From NCBI RefSeq assembly GCF_964036595.1, contig NZ_OZ038523.1, positions 400,501 to 464,500 of the forward strand: a stretch of 64,000 nucleotides of DNA, in the 5' to 3' direction. The stretch's first letter is position 1, and each line of letters opens with the position of its first letter. This stretch comes from Tenacibaculum sp. 190524A05c. Lineage in GTDB: Bacteria > Bacteroidota > Bacteroidia > Flavobacteriales > Flavobacteriaceae. Position numbers and translations under genes: made by a program. This document shows positions 11,972 through 47,212 of this stretch, piece after piece. Under the pieces are notes generated by a model. That model saw only the letters and a list, made by a program, of their open reading frames with translations. It was not told the origin of the DNA and made no database searches.

Positions 11972-12847
11972 TTATTCCTCTTCATCATCACCTTGTATTT
12001 TATCTACAATGGCATCTTTGATTTTATCTTTATTGTCATTATATAATTTTAACCACTTATCCCATGTTTTCTTTCGAGCATTTACTTCGTTCACGGTTAA
12101 TTGTATTGATTCAATTTGATATTTTGTTGGAATAAATCTGTAAATATCATCTTTTGTAGGAGTAAATTTAGCTTTTGGTCCTTCAGGTGTTATTTTATTT
12201 AATTCGATTGTTTTTAAATCCATGCTTTGTAGAAATCCATCTTCGTCAAAATAGTTAACTTTAAAATTTAGAAGTAAATTTACTTTATGGTGTTTCTTTT
12301 TTAATTTAACACCAGTGTATTTATATAAATAACCATCAAATTTTAAAATTTTGAATTTATCATTAATAGGGTTCTTATAAATTGAAAACTCAAAGGTTTG
12401 ATTCATAGAGTCAATAACTACCTTCTTACTATCTGGTTTTTCGCTATAATTGAAATAGTAGAGTTTTTCATTATGCAACTTTTTAAAGTCAGTAGTTGTT
12501 TTTAAAGAAATAAATTTTTGTTCTGCACTATTTTCTTTAGCAAATTTTTCAGGCTTATATATGACAGAACCAATATGATTAATTACTTGCTTTATAATAA
12601 TAATAGCTGCTTGAGTTCCTATGCTTTCAATACCAACACTATCTATCTCCTTTAATTTTATTTTAGATCCTAGTACTAAAGTTGATTTTGGTTTTATTCG
12701 ACCTATTTCGCCTATACCATTAGAATCTTTATAATAATAAGTTGTTGTTTTTTTTGGTTTCTTTTTTCTAGTATCTGTTGAAGTTTGACTAAATGTACTT
12801 ATTGAGAAAAAGATTAGAAATGAAAGTAAAAGTTTACTTGAATTCAT
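11972..12847 (-). CDS. Secreted protein of unknown function, predicted NarL-type regulon member
   Basis: A 291-aa protein with a cleavable signal peptide (LLLSFLIFFSISTFSQ). The mature part is Lys-rich and beta-prone with no motif I recognise. It contains a TTTYYYKDSNGIG segment near the N-terminus, a Q-F-E-F-S-I-Y-K strand region, and an acidic end (IQGDDEEE). There are no cysteines in the mature part. A 16-bp NarL-type inverted repeat (12904-12919) and a -7-like box (12874-12881) precede it at the same spacing as before the response regulator gene at 16976-17617. This suggests control by that two-component system. No homologue can be named. Confidence 0.6.
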   Translation of the reverse strand: MNSSKLLLSFLIFFSISTFSQTSTDTRKKKPKKTTTYYYKDSNGIGEIGRIKPKSTLVLGSKIKLKEIDSVGIESIGTQAAIIIIKQVINHIGSVIYKPEKFAKENSAEQKFISLKTTTDFKKLHNEKLYYFNYSEKPDSKKVVIDSMNQTFEFSIYKNPINDKFKILKFDGYLYKYTGVKLKKKHHKVNLLLNFKVNYFDEDGFLQSMDLKTIELNKITPEGPKAKFTPTKDDIYRFIPTKYQIESIQLTVNEVNARKKTWDKWLKLYNDNKDKIKDAIVDKIQGDDEEE

Positions 12848-12873: not shown

Positions 12874-12919
12874 TAAAAATAAAATATTTTTCAGTACAAA
12901 GTGTACCTAATAATGGGTA
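12874..12919 (-). promoter_or_regulatory. NarL-type operator and -7 box before the secreted 291-aa protein
   Basis: The inverted repeat TACCTAA-TA-ATGGGTA (12904-12919) fits the 7-2-7 NarL arrangement TACYYMT-N2-AKRRGTA with one mismatch. A minus-strand -7-like box TATTTTTA (12874-12881, one mismatch to TAnnTTTG) lies 37.5 bp from the repeat centre, 27 bp upstream of the ATG. The same geometry recurs at 17637-17682, 20222-20268 and 47167-47212. Confidence 0.55.
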
Positions 12920-14308: not shown

Positions 14309-15043
14309 TTAAAAAATTTTTTGAAGCGTATATTCTTTTCTCCTTGCTGCTACTGGAATTTTTTCTCCTGTTTTTAGTATTAAAAACCCTTGTTTTTGAT
14401 ACTTAACAACTTTGTTCTTATTCACTATATAAGATTGGTGACAGCGCACAAATGTGTTTTCTGATAGTAATTCTTCTGTTTTCATCATAGATTTTGAAAC
14501 CACAACCTTTTCAGATACATTGGTATAAAAAGTGGTGTAGTTTCCATCAGATTTACAATAAAGAATATCATCTTCATTAATTGCGAATACAGCATTTGAA
14601 GTTCTAAGAATTATACGTTTGTTGATGCCGTTGTAATAGTCGTTTGATACTTTTATAAGTTGTTCGATGTTATTGTCAGAACTCGTATTGTCAATAGCTT
14701 TTTGAACTGCTGTATTGAATTCTTCATCGTCTACAGGTTTTAGAATATAATCTAAAGCCCCAACTTTTATAGCTTTTATGGCATGAGTATCAAATCCCGT
14801 AATAAAAATTACTTGAATATTTTTGTTACTAATTTGCTTCAAAACATCGAAACCTGTTCCATCTCCTAAATCAACGTCTAATAATAATAAATCGGGATTA
14901 TGTTTTTCTATTTCAACTTTAGCTTCCGCAACACTAGAGGCTTCAGAAACGATTTTAATTTCCTGAGGAAAGTTTGAGGTTAACCGATCAATTACATCTG
15001 ATCTTACAAGTTTTTCATCATCAATAACAATAACGTTAATCAT
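14309..15043 (-). CDS. LytTR-family response regulator
   Basis: A 244-aa two-component response regulator. The receiver domain (1-120) has the acidic pair DD at 8-9, the phospho-acceptor Asp56 in LLLLDVDLGDGTG, and the conserved LKPVDD lysine near 105. The LytTR DNA-binding domain occupies about 140-244 (RIILRTSNAVFAINEDDILYCKSDGNYTTF, FVRCHQSYIVNKNKV). Its start overlaps the end of the sensor kinase gene by 8 bp, so the two are translationally coupled and form a pair. LytTR regulators often control secreted proteins, adhesion or cell-envelope functions. The targets are not visible. Confidence 0.93.
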   Translation of the reverse strand: MINVIVIDDEKLVRSDVIDRLTSNFPQEIKIVSEASSVAEAKVEIEKHNPDLLLLDVDLGDGTGFDVLKQISNKNIQVIFITGFDTHAIKAIKVGALDYILKPVDDEEFNTAVQKAIDNTSSDNNIEQLIKVSNDYYNGINKRIILRTSNAVFAINEDDILYCKSDGNYTTFYTNVSEKVVVSKSMMKTEELLSENTFVRCHQSYIVNKNKVVKYQKQGFLILKTGEKIPVAARRKEYTLQKIF

Positions 15044-16886
15044 TCTTAGTCAATTTAAATGGGATTTTAAAAGATACTATTACACCTGTTTCATTAATGT
15101 CTAGCGAATCTTTATCTGTAATTTGTATTCCTTTTCCTGTTGATTTTTTTAAATAATCATGTATTAATTCCAACGAAGTCGATTTTTTAATATCTGAACT
15201 TTCGGATTGTAAACCACGACCATTATCTTCAATTTTACATTCAAGAAAACTTTTCTTTTGTGTAAGAGTTAATACAAGTTTCCCTTTATAATTAATGCCA
15301 TTAAAACCATGTTCTATGCTGTTTTCTATCATAGGTTGAATTAGCATTGGAGGAATAAAAATAAAACTATCTTCTTCTAAATTATTCAGTTGAATATAAA
15401 ATTCGAATTTATCAGGAAAACGTACTTGTTGTAATGCATAATATTCTTTTAAAGCTTTCAATTCATCTTTAAATAACACATAGTTTTGAGTTGAATTCTC
15501 CAAAATTAAGCGCAATAATCTAGAAAACTTAATCAGGTAATTTTTAGCCTTTAAAGGAGTGTCTTTAATTAAATTTTGAATGGTGTACAACGTGTTAAAT
15601 GTAAAATGCGGATTCATTTGAGATCGTAACAAACGTTGTTGCATTTGCAAACTTTGTTTTTTGACTTTATACATTCGTTGTCTGTAAAAGAATATGCTTA
15701 AAATAATGAGAATTGAAACAATTATAATTAAGGTGAATAATCGTGTAATACTTTTAATTTCAATATCTTTTTTTTCGGCTAAAATTTCATTTTCCTTTTT
15801 TAGAGCTTTCTCTAAAGCAACTAAATCTTCTTTATATTTTTTTGTGTATTGATCTTTTTGGTAATTAAAGATACTATCCAGACTATTACTTAGTTTTGTT
15901 GGGTCTTTATCTGTTACAACTGCCAATTCTAATTGTTTTTGTAAGATGCTCCTTAATACAGTTTCATTACCGTTTTTAGAATTTAGATAAAAGGCAGAAT
16001 CTAAATACGTGTAGGCTTTATTATATTTTTTTAAAGCAAAGTAAGCCTCAGATATATTATAGTATAATCGAGCTTTTTGATCTGCTGAAGTTCTATTTTT
16101 AGGAACTTTTTTAAGATGAGATAAACTTCTAATGAAGAAGTCTAATGAACTCTTGAATTTTTTTTCATCGAAAGTTTGAATACCATATCTGTTGTACAAA
16201 TTATACTTCGTAGTTTCATTTAAACGACTCTCAATATTTAGTAAACTATCTAGTAATTTGTAAGCCCTCTTTTTATTTTTTAATTGATATTCATATTCTG
16301 ATTGAAATATGACAGCTTCTCTAATAGAAGGAACTGTATTAGGAATATTACTATATGCGTTTATTTGTTTTTTATTGTATAAAATAGCCTGTTTGAAGTC
16401 TTCATTGGCTTTATATGTGTTTTCATATAGATAGTTAACAAACACTTGATTATTATAATCTTTATCATCCAATAAGCTCTCTAATTTGTCGACTATGGAA
16501 ATGCAGTCGCCATATTTTCCTTGAGAATAATATACATACCAACTTTGGTAGAAATAATCTATCTCACGATCGTATTGTAAAGAATCAGCACTAAAATCAG
16601 TAGCTTTATGAGAATAATGAGCGGCACTATCCATAACACCTTTAGCATAAAAGTAAGATCCTAAGGCATAATTATTTTCTGCTTTTAAAGAGTCGGACAA
16701 TTCAGGGAAAAGCTTGATGAGTTCAATTCCTTTCTTTAAAAAGTAATAGGTAGAGTCTTGATTTTTAGTTGATTTTTGTTGGAGTTCTATTAAATTAGAT
16801 TTAGCTTGACTACTATCTTTTACTTGATCATTACAAGCTAAACAAAGAAGAATAAAAACTACGAAGAAAAATCTTTTCGACATCAA
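15036..16886 (-). CDS. LytS-type sensor histidine kinase with TPR lipoprotein sensor region
   Basis: A 616-aa membrane kinase. It starts with a lipoprotein-like signal (FILLCLAC, Cys18). Residues 30-360 are TPR-like helices in the periplasm, with a coiled segment at about 340-375. One transmembrane span lies near 383-402 (LFTLIIIVSILIILSIFFY). The His_kinase domain follows with the phospho-acceptor in LRSQMNPHFTFNTLYTIQNL and the ATPase region (PPMLIQPMIENSIEHGF, IEDNGRGLQ). It phosphorylates the overlapping LytTR regulator gene product. The combination of Cys18 and a later membrane span means the N-terminus may be lipidated or simply cleaved. Confidence 0.92.
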   Translation of the reverse strand: MMSKRFFFVVFILLCLACNDQVKDSSQAKSNLIELQQKSTKNQDSTYYFLKKGIELIKLFPELSDSLKAENNYALGSYFYAKGVMDSAAHYSHKATDFSADSLQYDREIDYFYQSWYVYYSQGKYGDCISIVDKLESLLDDKDYNNQVFVNYLYENTYKANEDFKQAILYNKKQINAYSNIPNTVPSIREAVIFQSEYEYQLKNKKRAYKLLDSLLNIESRLNETTKYNLYNRYGIQTFDEKKFKSSLDFFIRSLSHLKKVPKNRTSADQKARLYYNISEAYFALKKYNKAYTYLDSAFYLNSKNGNETVLRSILQKQLELAVVTDKDPTKLSNSLDSIFNYQKDQYTKKYKEDLVALEKALKKENEILAEKKDIEIKSITRLFTLIIIVSILIILSIFFYRQRMYKVKKQSLQMQQRLLRSQMNPHFTFNTLYTIQNLIKDTPLKAKNYLIKFSRLLRLILENSTQNYVLFKDELKALKEYYALQQVRFPDKFEFYIQLNNLEEDSFIFIPPMLIQPMIENSIEHGFNGINYKGKLVLTLTQKKSFLECKIEDNGRGLQSESSDIKKSTSLELIHDYLKKSTGKGIQITDKDSLDINETGVIVSFKIPFKLTKND

Positions 16887-17636: not shown

Positions 17637-17682
17637 CAAAAATAGAAAATTGCAGCTCACGTTTTCTACTTATTGATAGGTA
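17637..17682 (-). promoter_or_regulatory. NarL-type operator and -7 box before the response regulator gene
   Basis: The inverted repeat TACTTAT-TG-ATAGGTA (17667-17682) fits TACYYMT-N2-AKRRGTA in all defined positions and abuts the kinase stop codon. A minus-strand -7 box TATTTTTG (17637-17644) lies 37.5 bp from the repeat centre and 20 bp from the ATG. This places the operator near position -45, as for an activator. Confidence 0.65.
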
Positions 17683-19611
17683 TTATATCGGAATGTTCAG
17701 AATAATAGAAGTGCCTCGATTCAGAGCAGAATCAATTTGAAATGTACCATTACAATGTTCTATTCTTTTTTTAATAGAACCTAATCCCATTCCGTTTTTA
17801 AAGTCAATTTCACTTTCTTTAAACCCTTTACCATTATCTTCTATAATAATATTTAAATTTTCATCAAAAAGAGACAAATTGATAGTTGCTTCAGATGCTT
17901 CTGCGTGTTTTATAACATTAGTTATCAATTCTTGAATTATTCTAAAAACCATTATTTCAGTATTAGTATCTAGTTTTTTTTCCAAACCAAAATCTACAAT
18001 TTCAATCTTTAGTTTGTTTGCTGAAGATACTTTTTCCGTCATGTGTTTTACCGCGACTAATAATCCTTCATTAGCTATAACTCCTGCATTTTTAGCATGA
18101 GCAATGTTTCTAACTTTTAAATAGGTTTCATCAATTAACTTTTCGGTTTTATTATATAAATCTTCTTGATTAAAATGTTTTTTTTCTCTATTCAGTTTTA
18201 AGTTTTCAAAATGTAGCTTTAAGGTAGCTAAAACGCTACCAATATTATCATGTAAATCTTCTGCAATTCGAATTCGTTCTTTTTCCTGACCTTCAACCAT
18301 GGCATTAATCGTGGTTATTTCTTGTTCCTTTAAAAGCGTTAAATTCTTTTGCTTTTCTAATTCCTTTTGTTTTTCGGCTAACAGTTGTTTTTTTCTTGAG
18401 TTTTTAATGTTTAGATAAGCAATTAAAGTACCTAATAAAAGAAATACCAGTGTAATGTATAGAAAGTTTTGAGTTTGTTTTTTTTCTAATTCGGTTTCCT
18501 TTCTTTCTTGTTCACTTACTAAATTTTGTTGTTTTAATTCAAGGTTTTCTTTTTCTTTTTCTAAAGTTTTTATTTGAACTTTTGTTTTGGATATTATTGT
18601 GTTATGTTGAAGAAATTTATATTGATAACCCAAAAAACGAACTTTTCTAGCGTAATAATATGCAGAATCGTATTGTTTCAGTTTAGCGTGCAAATCAGCT
18701 AAAAATGCTTTCTGATTATATAAATATCTCAGCGAATCATTAATGTTAATATATTTTGAAGATTGATGAAGATAATTAACTCCTTTTTGATAATTTCCAT
18801 TTAAAGATGCAACTCTAGCTAAATTAAGTAGAGCTTTAAACTTGGTCACGAGGAAGTAATTTGAGTTGTCAATATATTTTAAGCTATTCTTATAGAATTT
18901 CTTGGCATAATTAGGATTGTCTCTTATGAAATAATTTCCCTTATCCATAAAATATATTGACTTTAACTTATAACTTGGTTCATTTTGAAATATGGAATCA
19001 TAGGATTTAAAAATCACATCATATTTTGATTTTAATTTTGTTTTTTTCTCATTATATAATGTTGTTTGACCCAATAAATTAAATGAGAAGGAATAATAGT
19101 GTAACCAATCATTTACATTTCTACAATAACTTTTATATAAATTTAAATATTCGAGATAATCATTATCGTTTTGTAGTGAAGAACGAGAATAAAAAGTAAG
19201 TAAAGATTTTAAACAAAAATTAATCAAGAGCTGATAATCAGTTTTTCTTGCTTCGGTATAAGCGGTAAGAAAATACTGATAGCTGTTAGTACGTTCACTA
19301 TTATATAACAAGTCGTGGTATCCGAAAATTAAATTAATAATGGAATTGTCAAAGTTATTTCTTGTTAGTTCTAATTCAGGGCGTGTAACTATTATTTCTC
19401 CATTATTAGATACCAAATAATTTAAAAGTAGTAAATTCTTTATTCTAGATGTTGATTCTTCCAATAAACCTTTATTCGAGGGATTATTTTCAAAATTTAA
19501 GGTGTTAATATTTCTGAAAAAAGAATCGAATAAACTAAAATCTTCAGAGTTTGCTTTAACCGGCAAACTCTGAAGAATAAATATTATTAACAGTAAAATT
19601 CTATATTTCAC
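17683..19611 (-). CDS. NarX/DegS-type sensor histidine kinase with periplasmic TPR domain
   Basis: A 642-aa kinase with a signal sequence (LLLIIFILQSLPVKA) and about 340 residues of helical TPR-like periplasmic sequence. A coiled coil follows at about 335-375 (EKEKENLELKQQNLVSEQ), then a membrane span near 380-400 (FLYITLVFLLLGTLIAYLN). After a further linker comes HisKA_3 with the phospho-acceptor in RIRIAEDLHDNIGSVLATL at about 455, and the ATPase domain (MVFRIIQELITNVIKHAEA, IIEDNGKGFKES). It is the partner of the NarL-type regulator downstream. Its start overlaps the 199-aa gene by 11 bp. The operon promoter carries the NarL-type repeat. Confidence 0.92.
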   Translation of the reverse strand: MKYRILLLIIFILQSLPVKANSEDFSLFDSFFRNINTLNFENNPSNKGLLEESTSRIKNLLLLNYLVSNNGEIIVTRPELELTRNNFDNSIINLIFGYHDLLYNSERTNSYQYFLTAYTEARKTDYQLLINFCLKSLLTFYSRSSLQNDNDYLEYLNLYKSYCRNVNDWLHYYSFSFNLLGQTTLYNEKKTKLKSKYDVIFKSYDSIFQNEPSYKLKSIYFMDKGNYFIRDNPNYAKKFYKNSLKYIDNSNYFLVTKFKALLNLARVASLNGNYQKGVNYLHQSSKYININDSLRYLYNQKAFLADLHAKLKQYDSAYYYARKVRFLGYQYKFLQHNTIISKTKVQIKTLEKEKENLELKQQNLVSEQERKETELEKKQTQNFLYITLVFLLLGTLIAYLNIKNSRKKQLLAEKQKELEKQKNLTLLKEQEITTINAMVEGQEKERIRIAEDLHDNIGSVLATLKLHFENLKLNREKKHFNQEDLYNKTEKLIDETYLKVRNIAHAKNAGVIANEGLLVAVKHMTEKVSSANKLKIEIVDFGLEKKLDTNTEIMVFRIIQELITNVIKHAEASEATINLSLFDENLNIIIEDNGKGFKESEIDFKNGMGLGSIKKRIEHCNGTFQIDSALNRGTSIILNIPI

Positions 19612-20200
19612 GAGTAACTCTTAAATTAGAGGTAAAGCAATGATCTCCAGTTGCTTTGTTTGAAAAGTCAACTTGGTCATTTATCCAGTGGTCCATTGAA
19701 AGGTATAAACCAATTGGAGGAATATGATTATCGTCGTTGTATCTATCATCTTCCGTCTTACCATCTCTGTAAGAAAATTCCTCATCAAAAATATTATCCA
19801 TTTTATTTTGATTTTTAACTAAACCTCTAAATACTCTTACACCATGAATGTTGTCAACGTTTATCTCTTCATTTTCAATTATGTTTGTTGTGGTAATATT
19901 AGTTTTGGTGTTCTTTTCGAATCCAATCAGAGGTATTTCAATAAATAAAATGTTATTTCCCAAATTATCAGTAGTAGTTGAAACACGAATCTGATTATGA
20001 TTGTTATGATTTACAAAGCCTAAATTACAAGTCCCTTTATAGTTAAGTAATTCAAGTTCAACATAACTCAATATACTGCTGTTTTCTTTCAAATGAAATT
20101 TTCCATAAACACAGTAAAAAGTACCGTAATTTTGACTGGCAATTAAGAATTGATGCCTACTGCTATCCTTTAAATTAATACTAGTAGTTAAATTTGACAT
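19601..20200 (-). CDS. Unknown 199-aa protein, first gene of the sensor-kinase operon
   Basis: No family recognised. The 199-aa protein has no signal peptide or membrane span, is Asn- and Thr-rich and looks mostly beta (YGTFYCVYGKFHL, LSYVELELLNYKG, NILFIEIPLIGF). A C-terminal part resembles a compact beta end with GLYLSMDHWIND and DHCFTSNLRVTREI. Its last 11 bp overlap the kinase start, so the two are translationally coupled. The operon promoter holds the NarL-type repeat at 20253-20268. The position suggests a cytosolic output protein or accessory of this two-component system. A secreted role by a signal-less route cannot be excluded. Confidence 0.6.
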   Translation of the reverse strand: MSNLTTSINLKDSSRHQFLIASQNYGTFYCVYGKFHLKENSSILSYVELELLNYKGTCNLGFVNHNNHNQIRVSTTTDNLGNNILFIEIPLIGFEKNTKTNITTTNIIENEEINVDNIHGVRVFRGLVKNQNKMDNIFDEEFSYRDGKTEDDRYNDDNHIPPIGLYLSMDHWINDQVDFSNKATGDHCFTSNLRVTREI

Positions 20201-20221
20201 AATATAAATTTTAAATTTGGT

Positions 20222-20268
20222 TAAAGGTATATCTTGAATTATCCAATATGTCTACCTATAAATAGGTA
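20222..20268 (-). promoter_or_regulatory. NarL-type operator and -7 box before the 199-aa protein/kinase operon
   Basis: The perfect inverted repeat TACCTAT-AA-ATAGGTA (20253-20268) fits TACYYMT-N2-AKRRGTA exactly. A minus-strand -7-like box TACCTTTA (20222-20229, one mismatch to TAnnTTTG) is 38.5 bp from the repeat centre and 21 bp from the ATG. Confidence 0.65.
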
Positions 20269-44551: not shown

Positions 44552-45064
44552 TTATTTGCTAGAGTAATAGTATTCATTATTTGCTTTATGGAAAGAGTTG
44601 GCAATCATATGTAATTGTTTATCGGACATTTTAGAAGTTTTCTCTAGAATCTTAACATATTTATCTACCATTTTTTTAGATGTTGGATATCCTATATTAT
44701 TTCCATTCATATCAATAGAGATATCAATAAAGTTTCCATTCTCATCTAAAATATACCAAAAAGGAAAACTGTTATTTCGTATGCTTTTAGTCTCTAAGTA
44801 ATTTTCAGCTTCCTCTTTAGAGAGTTCAACGTTTACAATTACGTAGCTTTTATCGTATAGTTCTTTACAAACATCTTTTTGGATTTGCTCTTTAAATTTA
44901 TCGCTGAGTTCACAGGATTTCGAGGTATAATTGACAAATACATATTTGTTTTCTTCTTTAGCCTTTACAATAGCTTTTTCAATTCGTTCTTTACTATTTT
45001 GTGCAAATAAAGAATTTAGTGGAGTGATAATTAGAACTAGTAATAGAGTAATTAATTTATACAT
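44552..45064 (-). CDS. Exported thioredoxin-fold protein with a CxxS site (copy 1)
   Basis: A 170-aa protein with a signal peptide (LITLLLVLIITPLNSLFAQ). The fold is thioredoxin-like (YVFVNYTSKSCELSDKFK, SYVIVNVELSKEEAENY, FPFWYILDENGNFIDISIDM). The normal W-C-G-P-C centre is replaced by S-C-E-L-S (Cys51, Ser54): the first Cys remains and the second is Ser. This gives a monothiol site, as in proteins that trap or isomerise disulfides. The later part of the fold is intact. A related copy lies 238 bp upstream on the same strand at 45303-45842. Confidence 0.8.
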   Translation of the reverse strand: MYKLITLLLVLIITPLNSLFAQNSKERIEKAIVKAKEENKYVFVNYTSKSCELSDKFKEQIQKDVCKELYDKSYVIVNVELSKEEAENYLETKSIRNNSFPFWYILDENGNFIDISIDMNGNNIGYPTSKKMVDKYVKILEKTSKMSDKQLHMIANSFHKANNEYYYSSK

Positions 45065-45250
45065 ATGTAATATAATTTTGAGGATTAGTATGTATTAAAT
45101 TTAGCTAAAAATATGATTTTTAGTACGTTAGCTCATCTATACTTTATAACGGTTAATCGAAAGAAACTTGCCTTAGAACGTAGCATTTTTAAAGGCTATT
45201 TTTTGAGTTTATTTTGTTGTAAAACAGGTAGTTGTTTTGTTGTTGTAAAT

Positions 45251-45280
45251 AAAAAAGGCCTCCGATTGGAAGCCTATTTT
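45251..45280 (-). terminator. Rho-independent terminator of the second CxxS thioredoxin-fold gene
   Basis: Stem AGGC-C-TCC / GGA-A-GCCT with one mismatch and a 4-nt loop. On the minus strand a T-run follows. It lies about 23 bp behind the stop. Confidence 0.75.
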
Positions 45281-45302
45281 TGATAGTTAATTGTAAGGAA
45301 AA

Positions 45303-45842
45303 TTATTTACTAGTGTAAAGTTGTTGGTTATTCTTATTGAAAAAAGAATTACTAATTAGTTTCAAATTTGATTCAGTAAAATTTGATGTGTTTTTAATAA
45401 TGGCTAGAAAACTATCCATATTTTCCTTGTTAGGATAACCTATGTTTTGCTCACCGTCTACAAAAGAGGTAGCTACAAAATTTCCAGACTTATCTAGTAC
45501 ATACCAAAATGGAAATTGTACAGAATCACAATTACTTTCTCCAAAAGCTTTAACTGGATTTGAGCAGTGCACAAAATCTGATGTTTCTTCTTTCGATACA
45601 GTAATGTTCACAACAACATAATTAGAAGCAAAAACCTGTTTAAAAGAGTCTGTATTCATTAAAGATTTCATCTTTTCACTTACTTTGCAAGAAGATGATA
45701 AATAATTAATAAATACATGTTTGTTTTCTTTCTGAGCTTTTACTAAAGCATTCTCAATAAGATCTGAGTTAGAATTTTGCTGTTGAGCGTTAGAAAAATT
45801 GAATGAAATGATAACTAGAAGTATAAAAATATTTCTATACAT
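45303..45842 (-). CDS. Exported thioredoxin-fold protein with a CxxS site (copy 2)
   Basis: A 179-aa paralogue of the 44552-45064 product. Signal peptide (IFILLVIISFNFSNAQ), then HVFINYLSSSCKVSEKMKS with Cys52 and Ser55 in the CxxS pattern, SNYVVVNITVSKEETSDF, and FPFWYVLDKSGNFVATSFVDG. The two share the pattern of the whole domain, including the GYP near 140 (QNIGYPNKENMD). This copy has two more cysteines (HCSNPVKAFGESNCDS) in the loop before the cis-Pro strand. It is probably a periplasmic thiol-active or chaperone-like protein. The gene has its own terminator. Confidence 0.8.
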   Translation of the reverse strand: MYRNIFILLVIISFNFSNAQQQNSNSDLIENALVKAQKENKHVFINYLSSSCKVSEKMKSLMNTDSFKQVFASNYVVVNITVSKEETSDFVHCSNPVKAFGESNCDSVQFPFWYVLDKSGNFVATSFVDGEQNIGYPNKENMDSFLAIIKNTSNFTESNLKLISNSFFNKNNQQLYTSK

Positions 45843-45994: not shown

Positions 45995-47143
45995 CTATTT
46001 AATATTATTCATTACATCTTTTAATGCTTTTAAGAATACTGAATTTCTTACTATAGTTTCTCCATAGCAATTATTTTTGTTTGGACATTCAGTAATACAA
46101 CCCGTAGTACCACAAGTATTAACTATTCTACAAGTTTGACTTTTGTCTTTAAATTTATAATCTTGACCACCAGATAGTAAAAATCCTTCCACTTCATGAG
46201 TATTCCTATTGAAAACTGGACCTCCAGAATTTCCAGCGAAAGTATCAAGATTAGCATTAAATATATATGGGTTGTTGTTTTTTGTTACCCAAGCTTTATC
46301 GGCTAATTTTTGTGGCAATCCCAGAGGATGACCTATCGTGTATAAAGCTTGGTTAACCTCTATTTTCGAGTTCCAATTTAAATTTAAAATTCTAGATTTA
46401 TCCATTTCTTCATTCGTTCTAATTATGGCATAATCTAAACCTTTTTTATTTTTACCAACTCTTTGAACCTTTTTACCTGTAATTATTTGAGATTTTTTGA
46501 TTACAATATTTTTAGATTCATCATTATTTAGTCTATAGTCTAAAATAAAGGCTTTATTCATAAGATCAGCATTTGATAATATACAATGTCCCGCAGTAAT
46601 TAATACATTCTTGCCAACAATAAATCCCGTACATGTTGTATGTTTATAAGCAATAGATGGCTGTTTTACAAACCTTTCAGAGTCGCAAGATTTAATCATT
46701 GGGTCATCAACCAAATTAGTTGTTTCTAGCTTAAATGAATTATTAGTACTTTTTTTTAATAAAGAATTATTCACGATTAGTACAATTCCATTAGAGTTTT
46801 TTCGTATTGTATCGTTATTTGTAAATTGTACTTCCGTTCTATTGTCTTTACTATATTTTATATCAATACCATATATATCTCTAGACGTTTTGTTGTAGAA
46901 GTAAAGATTTTTAAGTAATGCAGCTTTAAAAATATCTTCTAGTTTGGAGTTTTCTATATAATTATTAAAACTTTTATCTCTGGTAAACTCATCTCTGTTA
47001 AGTTTATCAGTCTTAATAAGGTAAAGCAGTTTTAATTCTTGTGGCGATAACTTTTTAGATAATTCTTGAGGAGTAACTTCTATTTGACTAAAAGTATTAA
47101 AGTATGAAATTAGAAAAATAATAAGTAGAGTAATTTTTTTCAT
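45995..47143 (-). CDS. Secreted trypsin-like serine protease with a cysteine-rich insert
   Basis: A 382-aa exported protease with a signal peptide (LLIIFLISYFNTFSQ). About 130 residues of pro-region precede the S1-type domain. The triad is visible: His186 in LITAGHC, Asp237 in GLDYAI, Ser306 in FAGNSGGPVF. A glycine-rich DTFAGNSGG oxyanion loop is intact. The C-terminal part has an insert with five cysteines in 22 residues (positions 338, 344, 349, 353, 359), eight cysteines in all. It is likely secreted and activated by loss of the pro-region. The promoter carries the NarL-type inverted repeat (47197-47212). Confidence 0.88.
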   Translation of the reverse strand: MKKITLLIIFLISYFNTFSQIEVTPQELSKKLSPQELKLLYLIKTDKLNRDEFTRDKSFNNYIENSKLEDIFKAALLKNLYFYNKTSRDIYGIDIKYSKDNRTEVQFTNNDTIRKNSNGIVLIVNNSLLKKSTNNSFKLETTNLVDDPMIKSCDSERFVKQPSIAYKHTTCTGFIVGKNVLITAGHCILSNADLMNKAFILDYRLNNDESKNIVIKKSQIITGKKVQRVGKNKKGLDYAIIRTNEEMDKSRILNLNWNSKIEVNQALYTIGHPLGLPQKLADKAWVTKNNNPYIFNANLDTFAGNSGGPVFNRNTHEVEGFLLSGGQDYKFKDKSQTCRIVNTCGTTGCITECPNKNNCYGETIVRNSVFLKALKDVMNNIK

Positions 47144-47166: not shown

Positions 47167-47212
47167 CAATTTTAATATGTATTACATTTTTAAATCTACC
47201 TATAATTAGGTA
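47167..47212 (-). promoter_or_regulatory. NarL-type operator and -7 box before the serine protease gene
   Basis: The inverted repeat TACCTAT-AA-TTAGGTA (47197-47212) matches TACYYMT-N2-AKRRGTA with one mismatch. It shares 19 of 20 bases with 20252-20271. A minus-strand -7-like box TAAAATTG (47167-47174, one mismatch) is 37.5 bp from the repeat centre, 23 bp from the ATG. Confidence 0.6.

Follow-up and report, generated by a model that had tools for sequence, protein, structure and literature searches.

The 64,000-nucleotide (nt) stretch of the marine bacterium Tenacibaculum sp. 190524A05c analysed here (contig NZ_OZ038523.1, positions 400,501 to 464,500; "the window" below) carries a two-component locus in which an inverted repeat stands both before the gene of a NarL-type response regulator and before the operon of a 199-amino-acid (199-aa) protein and a sensor histidine kinase. 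Is this repeat the operator of the regulator encoded beside it, and are other genes of the 4.13-megabase (Mb) genome governed in the same way? Considering the evidence below, we believe it quite likely that palindromes of the form TACCTA-N4-TAGGTA are binding sites of this LuxR/NarL-type regulator, through which it would switch on the two transcripts that encode it and its sensor, along with about eight other genes.

The operator is defined here as the 16-base-pair (bp) palindrome TACCTA-N4-TAGGTA, with a -7 box similar to TAnnTTTG starting 22 or 23 bp past its edge. A preliminary description of the window had given the palindrome as TACCTAT-N2-ATAGGTA and placed it before both transcripts, with two more copies before exported proteins, all at one distance from a -7-like box, the two before the transcripts fitting the NarL pattern of two heptamers separated by two bases (7-2-7). 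Both repeats are present; that of the operon (20253) is perfect and that of the regulator (17667) departs once from the printed form. The two further copies do precede exported-looking proteins with signal-peptide-like starts, namely a 291-aa protein (copy at 12904) and a trypsin-like protease (47197), and in all four cases the box starts 22 or 23 bp past the edge of the operator. Each of the four lies 50-57 bp ahead of a minus-strand ATG (50 bp for the regulator, 53 bp for the 199-aa gene). The 7-2-7 label is another matter: the sites at 17667 and 20253 fit TACYYMT-N2-AKRRGTA at all defined positions, but those at 12904 and 47197 miss it somewhere, the former with two mismatches to TACCTAT-N2-ATAGGTA and one to TACCTA-N4-TAGGTA.

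A scan of the genome yielded 20 sites with at most two mismatches to TACCTAT-N2-ATAGGTA. Nine of them lie within reading frames, one (1112280) is intergenic without a box, and ten are intergenic and stand ahead of a start codon. These ten are all TACCTA-N4-TAGGTA-like, and each has a box matching 5 or 6 of the 6 defined bases at 22 or 23 bp. Among their 20 half-sites T1, A2, C3 and A6 are invariant, and C4 and T5 are each found in 18. The last base of the heptamer is T in only half of them (10), which makes 6-4-6 the conserved unit; the TACCTAT-N2-ATAGGTA form was abandoned for TACCTA-N4-TAGGTA after the intergenic sites had been read.

Perfect operators number 6 in the genome against 0.1 expected, perfect units of operator and TAnnTTT box at 22 or 23 bp number 5 against 0.0, and such units with at most one mismatch number 9 against 0.5 (the expected values for the units are means of 10 simulated genomes from an order-3 Markov model fitted to the window plus 16 genome stretches). 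With mismatches the operator alone has no genome-wide excess: 13 sites against 9 expected at up to one mismatch, 137 against 188 at up to two. Within the window, the loose pattern with at most three mismatches is matched 10 times against 4.1 +/- 2.0 expected, a mild excess. The earlier argument that such an arrangement is very unlikely by chance stands for the perfect operators and for the operator-box units of the whole genome, but the window by itself is a weak test and the mismatched operator by itself is not enriched. Gene context was read for all 13 sites with at most one mismatch except 267692, 1157744 and 3120956.

The spacing could also be followed in other genomes. For about 43 perfect sites whose loci were fetched by the operator alone, 83 directed readings give boxes of at least 5/6 at offset 22 in 10 cases and at offset 23 in 22; every other offset has 0-8 boxes, the 8 being at offset 0. 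Of the 107 distinct perfect operators in all loci taken together, 85 are flanked on one side by a box at 22 or 23, in a set that partly includes loci fetched with a box-containing pattern.

If the regulator controls its own gene, the promoter of that gene should hold a conserved operator-like palindrome, and in 28 of the 31 orthologous loci it does: the palindrome has at most three mismatches, lies 41-63 bp ahead of the regulator start and is accompanied by a box of at least 5/6 at 22-23 bp. These loci include the window's own and have an identity of at least 78%; 5 of the 36 genomes with an orthologue contributed no locus. In random stretches of equal size, three or fewer mismatches are reached in 2.8%. 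The second site is kept as well: in all ten named Tenacibaculum and Polaribacter loci an operator with no more than one mismatch precedes the kinase, 2.3-3.8 kilobases (kb) upstream of the regulator start, and nine of the ten have a box of at least 5/6. Gene maps cover three of these ten loci, in three others a start follows the operator, and at least six of the ten overlap by coordinates with genomes of the 31-locus set. The closest regulators, 92-93% identical, are those of T. skagerrakense, T. agarivorans and one Tenacibaculum metagenome-assembled genome.

In two loci of Psychroserpens and one of Leeuwenhoekiella the regulator is 53-57% identical, and each 20.6-kb locus has only two TACC-N8-GGTA palindromes, placed before the operon or just 3' of the regulator gene. 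Five of these six palindromes have a box of at least 5/6 at 22 or 23 bp (CATCTTTG, TAAGTTTA, CACTTTTG, TAGCTTTG and TAATTTTG); TAACATTA is weaker.

The number of operators tracks the regulator. Across 97 genomes of the genus group, the 36 with an orthologue have on average 4.44 perfect operators, with at least one in 35 of them, and the 61 without an orthologue have 0.74, with at least one in 25 (Mann-Whitney p 6e-13, uncorrected for shared ancestry). The difference persists among genomes at least 90% complete (34 with and 36 without an orthologue), and a backwards control pattern gives 14 matches in the 36 genomes and 13 in the 61. Since the place of the operator is kept, recurs in two other genera, and is joined by this co-occurrence of operators and regulator, we regard autoregulation by the NarL/LuxR-type regulator, as predicted from conservation and co-occurrence, as well supported. 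The link between repeat and regulator drawn in the preliminary description is supported as far as autoregulation is concerned; it should not be taken to mean that the regulator is the only user of the operator, which it probably is not.

The ten intergenic sites precede the regulator, the 199-aa/kinase operon and eight other genes, whose products are the 291-aa protein, the trypsin-like protease and proteins of 459, 182, 104, 134, 100 and 255 aa. The 134-aa protein is weakly crystallin-like, the 100-aa and 255-aa ones are lipoprotein-like, and nitrate genes are not found among the ten predicted targets. Six of the eight have an export-signal-like start (three by a crude rule, three by eye). 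Across loci, the crude rule finds such a start in 49 of 71 predicted targets; in the window, 18 of 42 open reading frames of at least 200 aa have one (Fisher p 0.01). One recurrent target of 393 aa ends in a type IX sorting tail, and a second one is a protein with leucine-rich repeats.

As to the components, the regulator belongs to the NarL/FixJ (LuxR-type) kind by its domains (PF00072, 84 bits; PF00196, 74 bits; both above cut-off), and the kinase is of the HisKA_3 type (PF07730, 26.8 bits at a cut-off of 24; PF02518, 53.4 bits at a cut-off of 26.4). They are probably a two-component pair of this known kind, and the whole would be an autoregulated LuxR/NarL-type regulon with activation from about -43. 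Excerpts of PMC9723704 place flavobacterial -7 boxes at -12 to -5, which together with the box spacing puts the predicted operator centre at -42.5 or -43.5; for comparison, the operators of class II activators overlap or abut the promoter's upstream element, with centres near -41.5 to -44.5. The predicted leaders are 15 nt for the regulator and 17 nt for the operon. We presume that the kinase, with its exported-looking N-terminus, would sense a signal and phosphorylate the regulator, which would then dimerise on the operator, beside or over the -33 region, and aid RNA polymerase at the TAnnTTTG box in a class II-like manner. Positive autoregulation of regulator and sensor may sharpen the switch.

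Several observations weigh against this reading. The site before the regulator is absent from three of the 31 orthologous loci (L024, L069, L074), and one outgroup site, L098 10642, has a perfect box but is followed by no ATG frame longer than 17 aa in the next 300 bp. Between 2 and 4 perfect operators are retained in ten genomes that lack the orthologue, and the operator counts carry no correction for common descent. The base contacts of NarL, which we take to be Lys188, Val189 and Lys192, correspond here to D, T and K; two of the three differ, and the specificity of NarL is therefore not transferable to our regulator. Finally, a centre at -42.5 favours activation but is still compatible with repression.

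The ten genomes just mentioned show that the operator alone is no proof of the two-component regulator, and several operators of orthologue-less genomes stand before exported proteins that also have one where the orthologue is present. One may then propose that the operator belongs mainly to a receiver-less LuxR-type protein of about 134 aa, or to LuxR-type paralogues of the same specificity, the two-component regulator being one of several users; we consider this unlikely, although it is the most serious competitor. A search with the helix-turn-helix only returned small receiver-less proteins of the LuxR type (family C) in 17 genomes; G005 was excluded, its match being the two-component regulator, and so was G058, the helix of which is not C-like. 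C is found in 7 of the 61 orthologue-less genomes, and each of these seven has two or more perfect operators, as do only 3 of the 54 that lack C (Fisher p 2.8e-7; with G058 counted, 8/8 against 2/53, p 1.5e-8). The recognition helix of C, TVSTHRKNIKQKL, is similar to that of the regulator, TVDTHRKNMIRKL, and in 6 of 15 C loci (L374-L388) an operator (one mismatch at most) and the gene of a large exported protein come directly after the C gene. Yet at E <= 1e-12 C is absent from the window's genome and from 28 of the 36 orthologue genomes, which hold operators nonetheless; the C gene itself has no operator with at most one mismatch ahead of it in the C loci; G058, G070 and G105 keep 2-3 operators with neither the orthologue nor C; and THRKN is present also in LuxR-type proteins of genomes without operators. 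The C copies in L381 and L388 carry an internal stop.

Given that ten orthologue-less genomes keep operators and that seven of these carry C, the operator probably has more than one reader of the LuxR type. In the genome of the window, where the search found no C, the two-component regulator is likely to be the reader. Paralogue B, which has a PAS-kinase partner and a TVDVHRNN helix, was also considered as a substitute binder and was judged weaker than C. Orthologue-less genomes with B have at least two operators in 8 of 14 cases, against 2 of 47 lacking B. Among nine B loci, L278 and L283 have a two-mismatch match no more than about 30 bp from the kinase start, too close for -43, L279 has a one-mismatch site 3' of the B gene, and the remaining six have no match near the operon start.

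More doubtful still is a repressor operator, from which the regulator, or some other factor, would keep RNA polymerase off the -33 region, with negative autoregulation as the outcome. The operator covers about -35 to -51 and so adjoins the expected -33 element, and in several relatives a TTG directly adjoins it. In seven of the ten promoters of the genome, however, no TTG starts within 8 bases of the operator, and these promoters may for that reason be weak unaided. Single NarL sites that serve activation lie at a similar distance from the start, at -40 to -49 in napF and at -38 to -47 in yeaR (excerpts of PMC4549865; for the likeness also of PMC7419079). We therefore favour class II-like activation by a phosphorylated dimer. 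That the sites are chance palindromes of AT-rich intergenic DNA is hardly credible: the weak window test and the ordinary frequency of operators with one or two mismatches would suit it, but it is refuted by the spacing and conservation tests, that is, by the fixed distance to the box and the place kept at the regulator gene, along with the excess of perfect sites.

The activating two-component system preferred here resembles NarX/NarQ-NarL of E. coli in having a HisKA_3-type kinase, a receiver/GerE regulator and a palindrome beginning with TAC (PMC4549865 and PMC7419079). It differs in its Bacteroidota -7 promoter, in the operator within the regulator's own promoter and in the lack of nitrate genes among the ten targets of the genome. 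The regulator scores 119.3 bits with the model of NarL proper (NCBIfam NF007935), well under the equivalog cut-off of 250. Because this model is not reached and base 7 of the heptamer is free, the operator is not a strict NarL 7-2-7 site. By sequence the closest solved structures are VraR, DesR and NarL, with VraR (of VraR/LiaR) and DesR as the closest full-length relatives. The best-scoring named NCBIfam models are MctR for the regulator and MctS for the kinase (NF052445/NF052443, the MctR/MctS pair), yet both stay far under their curated cut-offs, at 169 against 300 bits and 107 against 700 bits.

A search of the literature, mostly outside subscription papers, found no account of a TACCTA-N4-TAGGTA operator among the matches listed, and the motif or both genera combined with regulator terms gave no match. 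With a defined operator at a fixed distance from the promoter, we believe, a Bacteroidota two-component regulon becomes directly testable and can be read from sequence in dozens of marine genomes. If its use is indeed shared with a receiver-less protein, the case would also show how a regulon outlives its two-component system.

The kinase and the regulator are constant and the gene or genes ahead of the kinase vary by genome (L087-L099, 6.2-8.2 kb); the first gene after the operon operator encodes a member of the 199-aa family, a 173-aa protein (L088), a trypsin-like (L089) or a papain-like protein (L098), or others. It is tempting to propose, though only tentatively, a single operator code (TACCTA-N4-TAGGTA, 22 or 23 bp to the -7 box) for a regulon in Tenacibaculum and Polaribacter whose products are exported, in part type IX-sorted, and which is common to a phosphorelay LuxR-type regulator and a receiver-less LuxR-type protein that would substitute for it where the two-component system was lost. 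The quickly changing first gene of the operon would then be of the kind met in surveillance or conflict systems.

Table. Operators, -7 boxes and genes of the predicted regulon in the window (box matches are counted over the six defined bases of TAnnTTTG)
Feature	Position	Strand	Details
Response regulator, 213 aa	16976..17617	-	receiver + LuxR/GerE helix-turn-helix (Pfam PF00072 + PF00196)
-7 box of regulator promoter	17637..17644	-	TATTTTTG, 6/6; 22 bp from operator edge
Operator before regulator gene	17667..17682	-	TACTTATTGATAGGTA; minus-strand reading TACCTATCAATAAGTA; predicted centre -42.5
Sensor histidine kinase, 642 aa	17683..19611	-	signal-peptide-like N-terminus; HisKA_3 + HATPase_c (Pfam)
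199-aa protein, first in kinase operon	19601..20200	-	predicted beta-rich, without family
-7 box of 199-aa/kinase operon	20222..20229	-	TACCTTTA, 5/6; 23 bp from operator edge
Operator before 199-aa/kinase operon	20253..20268	-	TACCTATAAATAGGTA, perfect; predicted centre -43.5
291-aa protein, predicted target	11972..12847	-	signal-peptide-like start (by eye)
-7 box ahead of 291-aa gene	12874..12881	-	TATTTTTA, 5/6; 22 bp spacing
Operator before 291-aa protein gene	12904..12919	-	TACCTAATAATGGGTA
Trypsin-like peptidase, 382 aa, predicted target	45995..47143	-	signal-peptide-like start
-7 box ahead of trypsin-like protease	47167..47174	-	TAAAATTG, 5/6; 22 bp spacing
Operator before trypsin-like protease	47197..47212	-	TACCTATAATTAGGTA, perfect 6-4-6

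Directly 3' of the regulator gene lies a second two-component pair (14309-16886), by eye a LytTR-like regulator and a TPR-type histidine kinase, with no operator ahead of it in the match list of the window. Downstream of the trypsin-like protease, at 44552-45842, there are two tandem proteins with signal-like starts and weak thioredoxin-like matches below the Pfam cut-offs. In at least six loci (L043, L047, L054, L058, L167, L174) the operator stands between a gene starting with MKEITS, presumably RNA methyltransferase-like, and a AATATTTG box on the opposite strand. Four identical 16-mers about 1.69 kb apart at G000:C1:1260934-1266005 point to a long tandem repeat.

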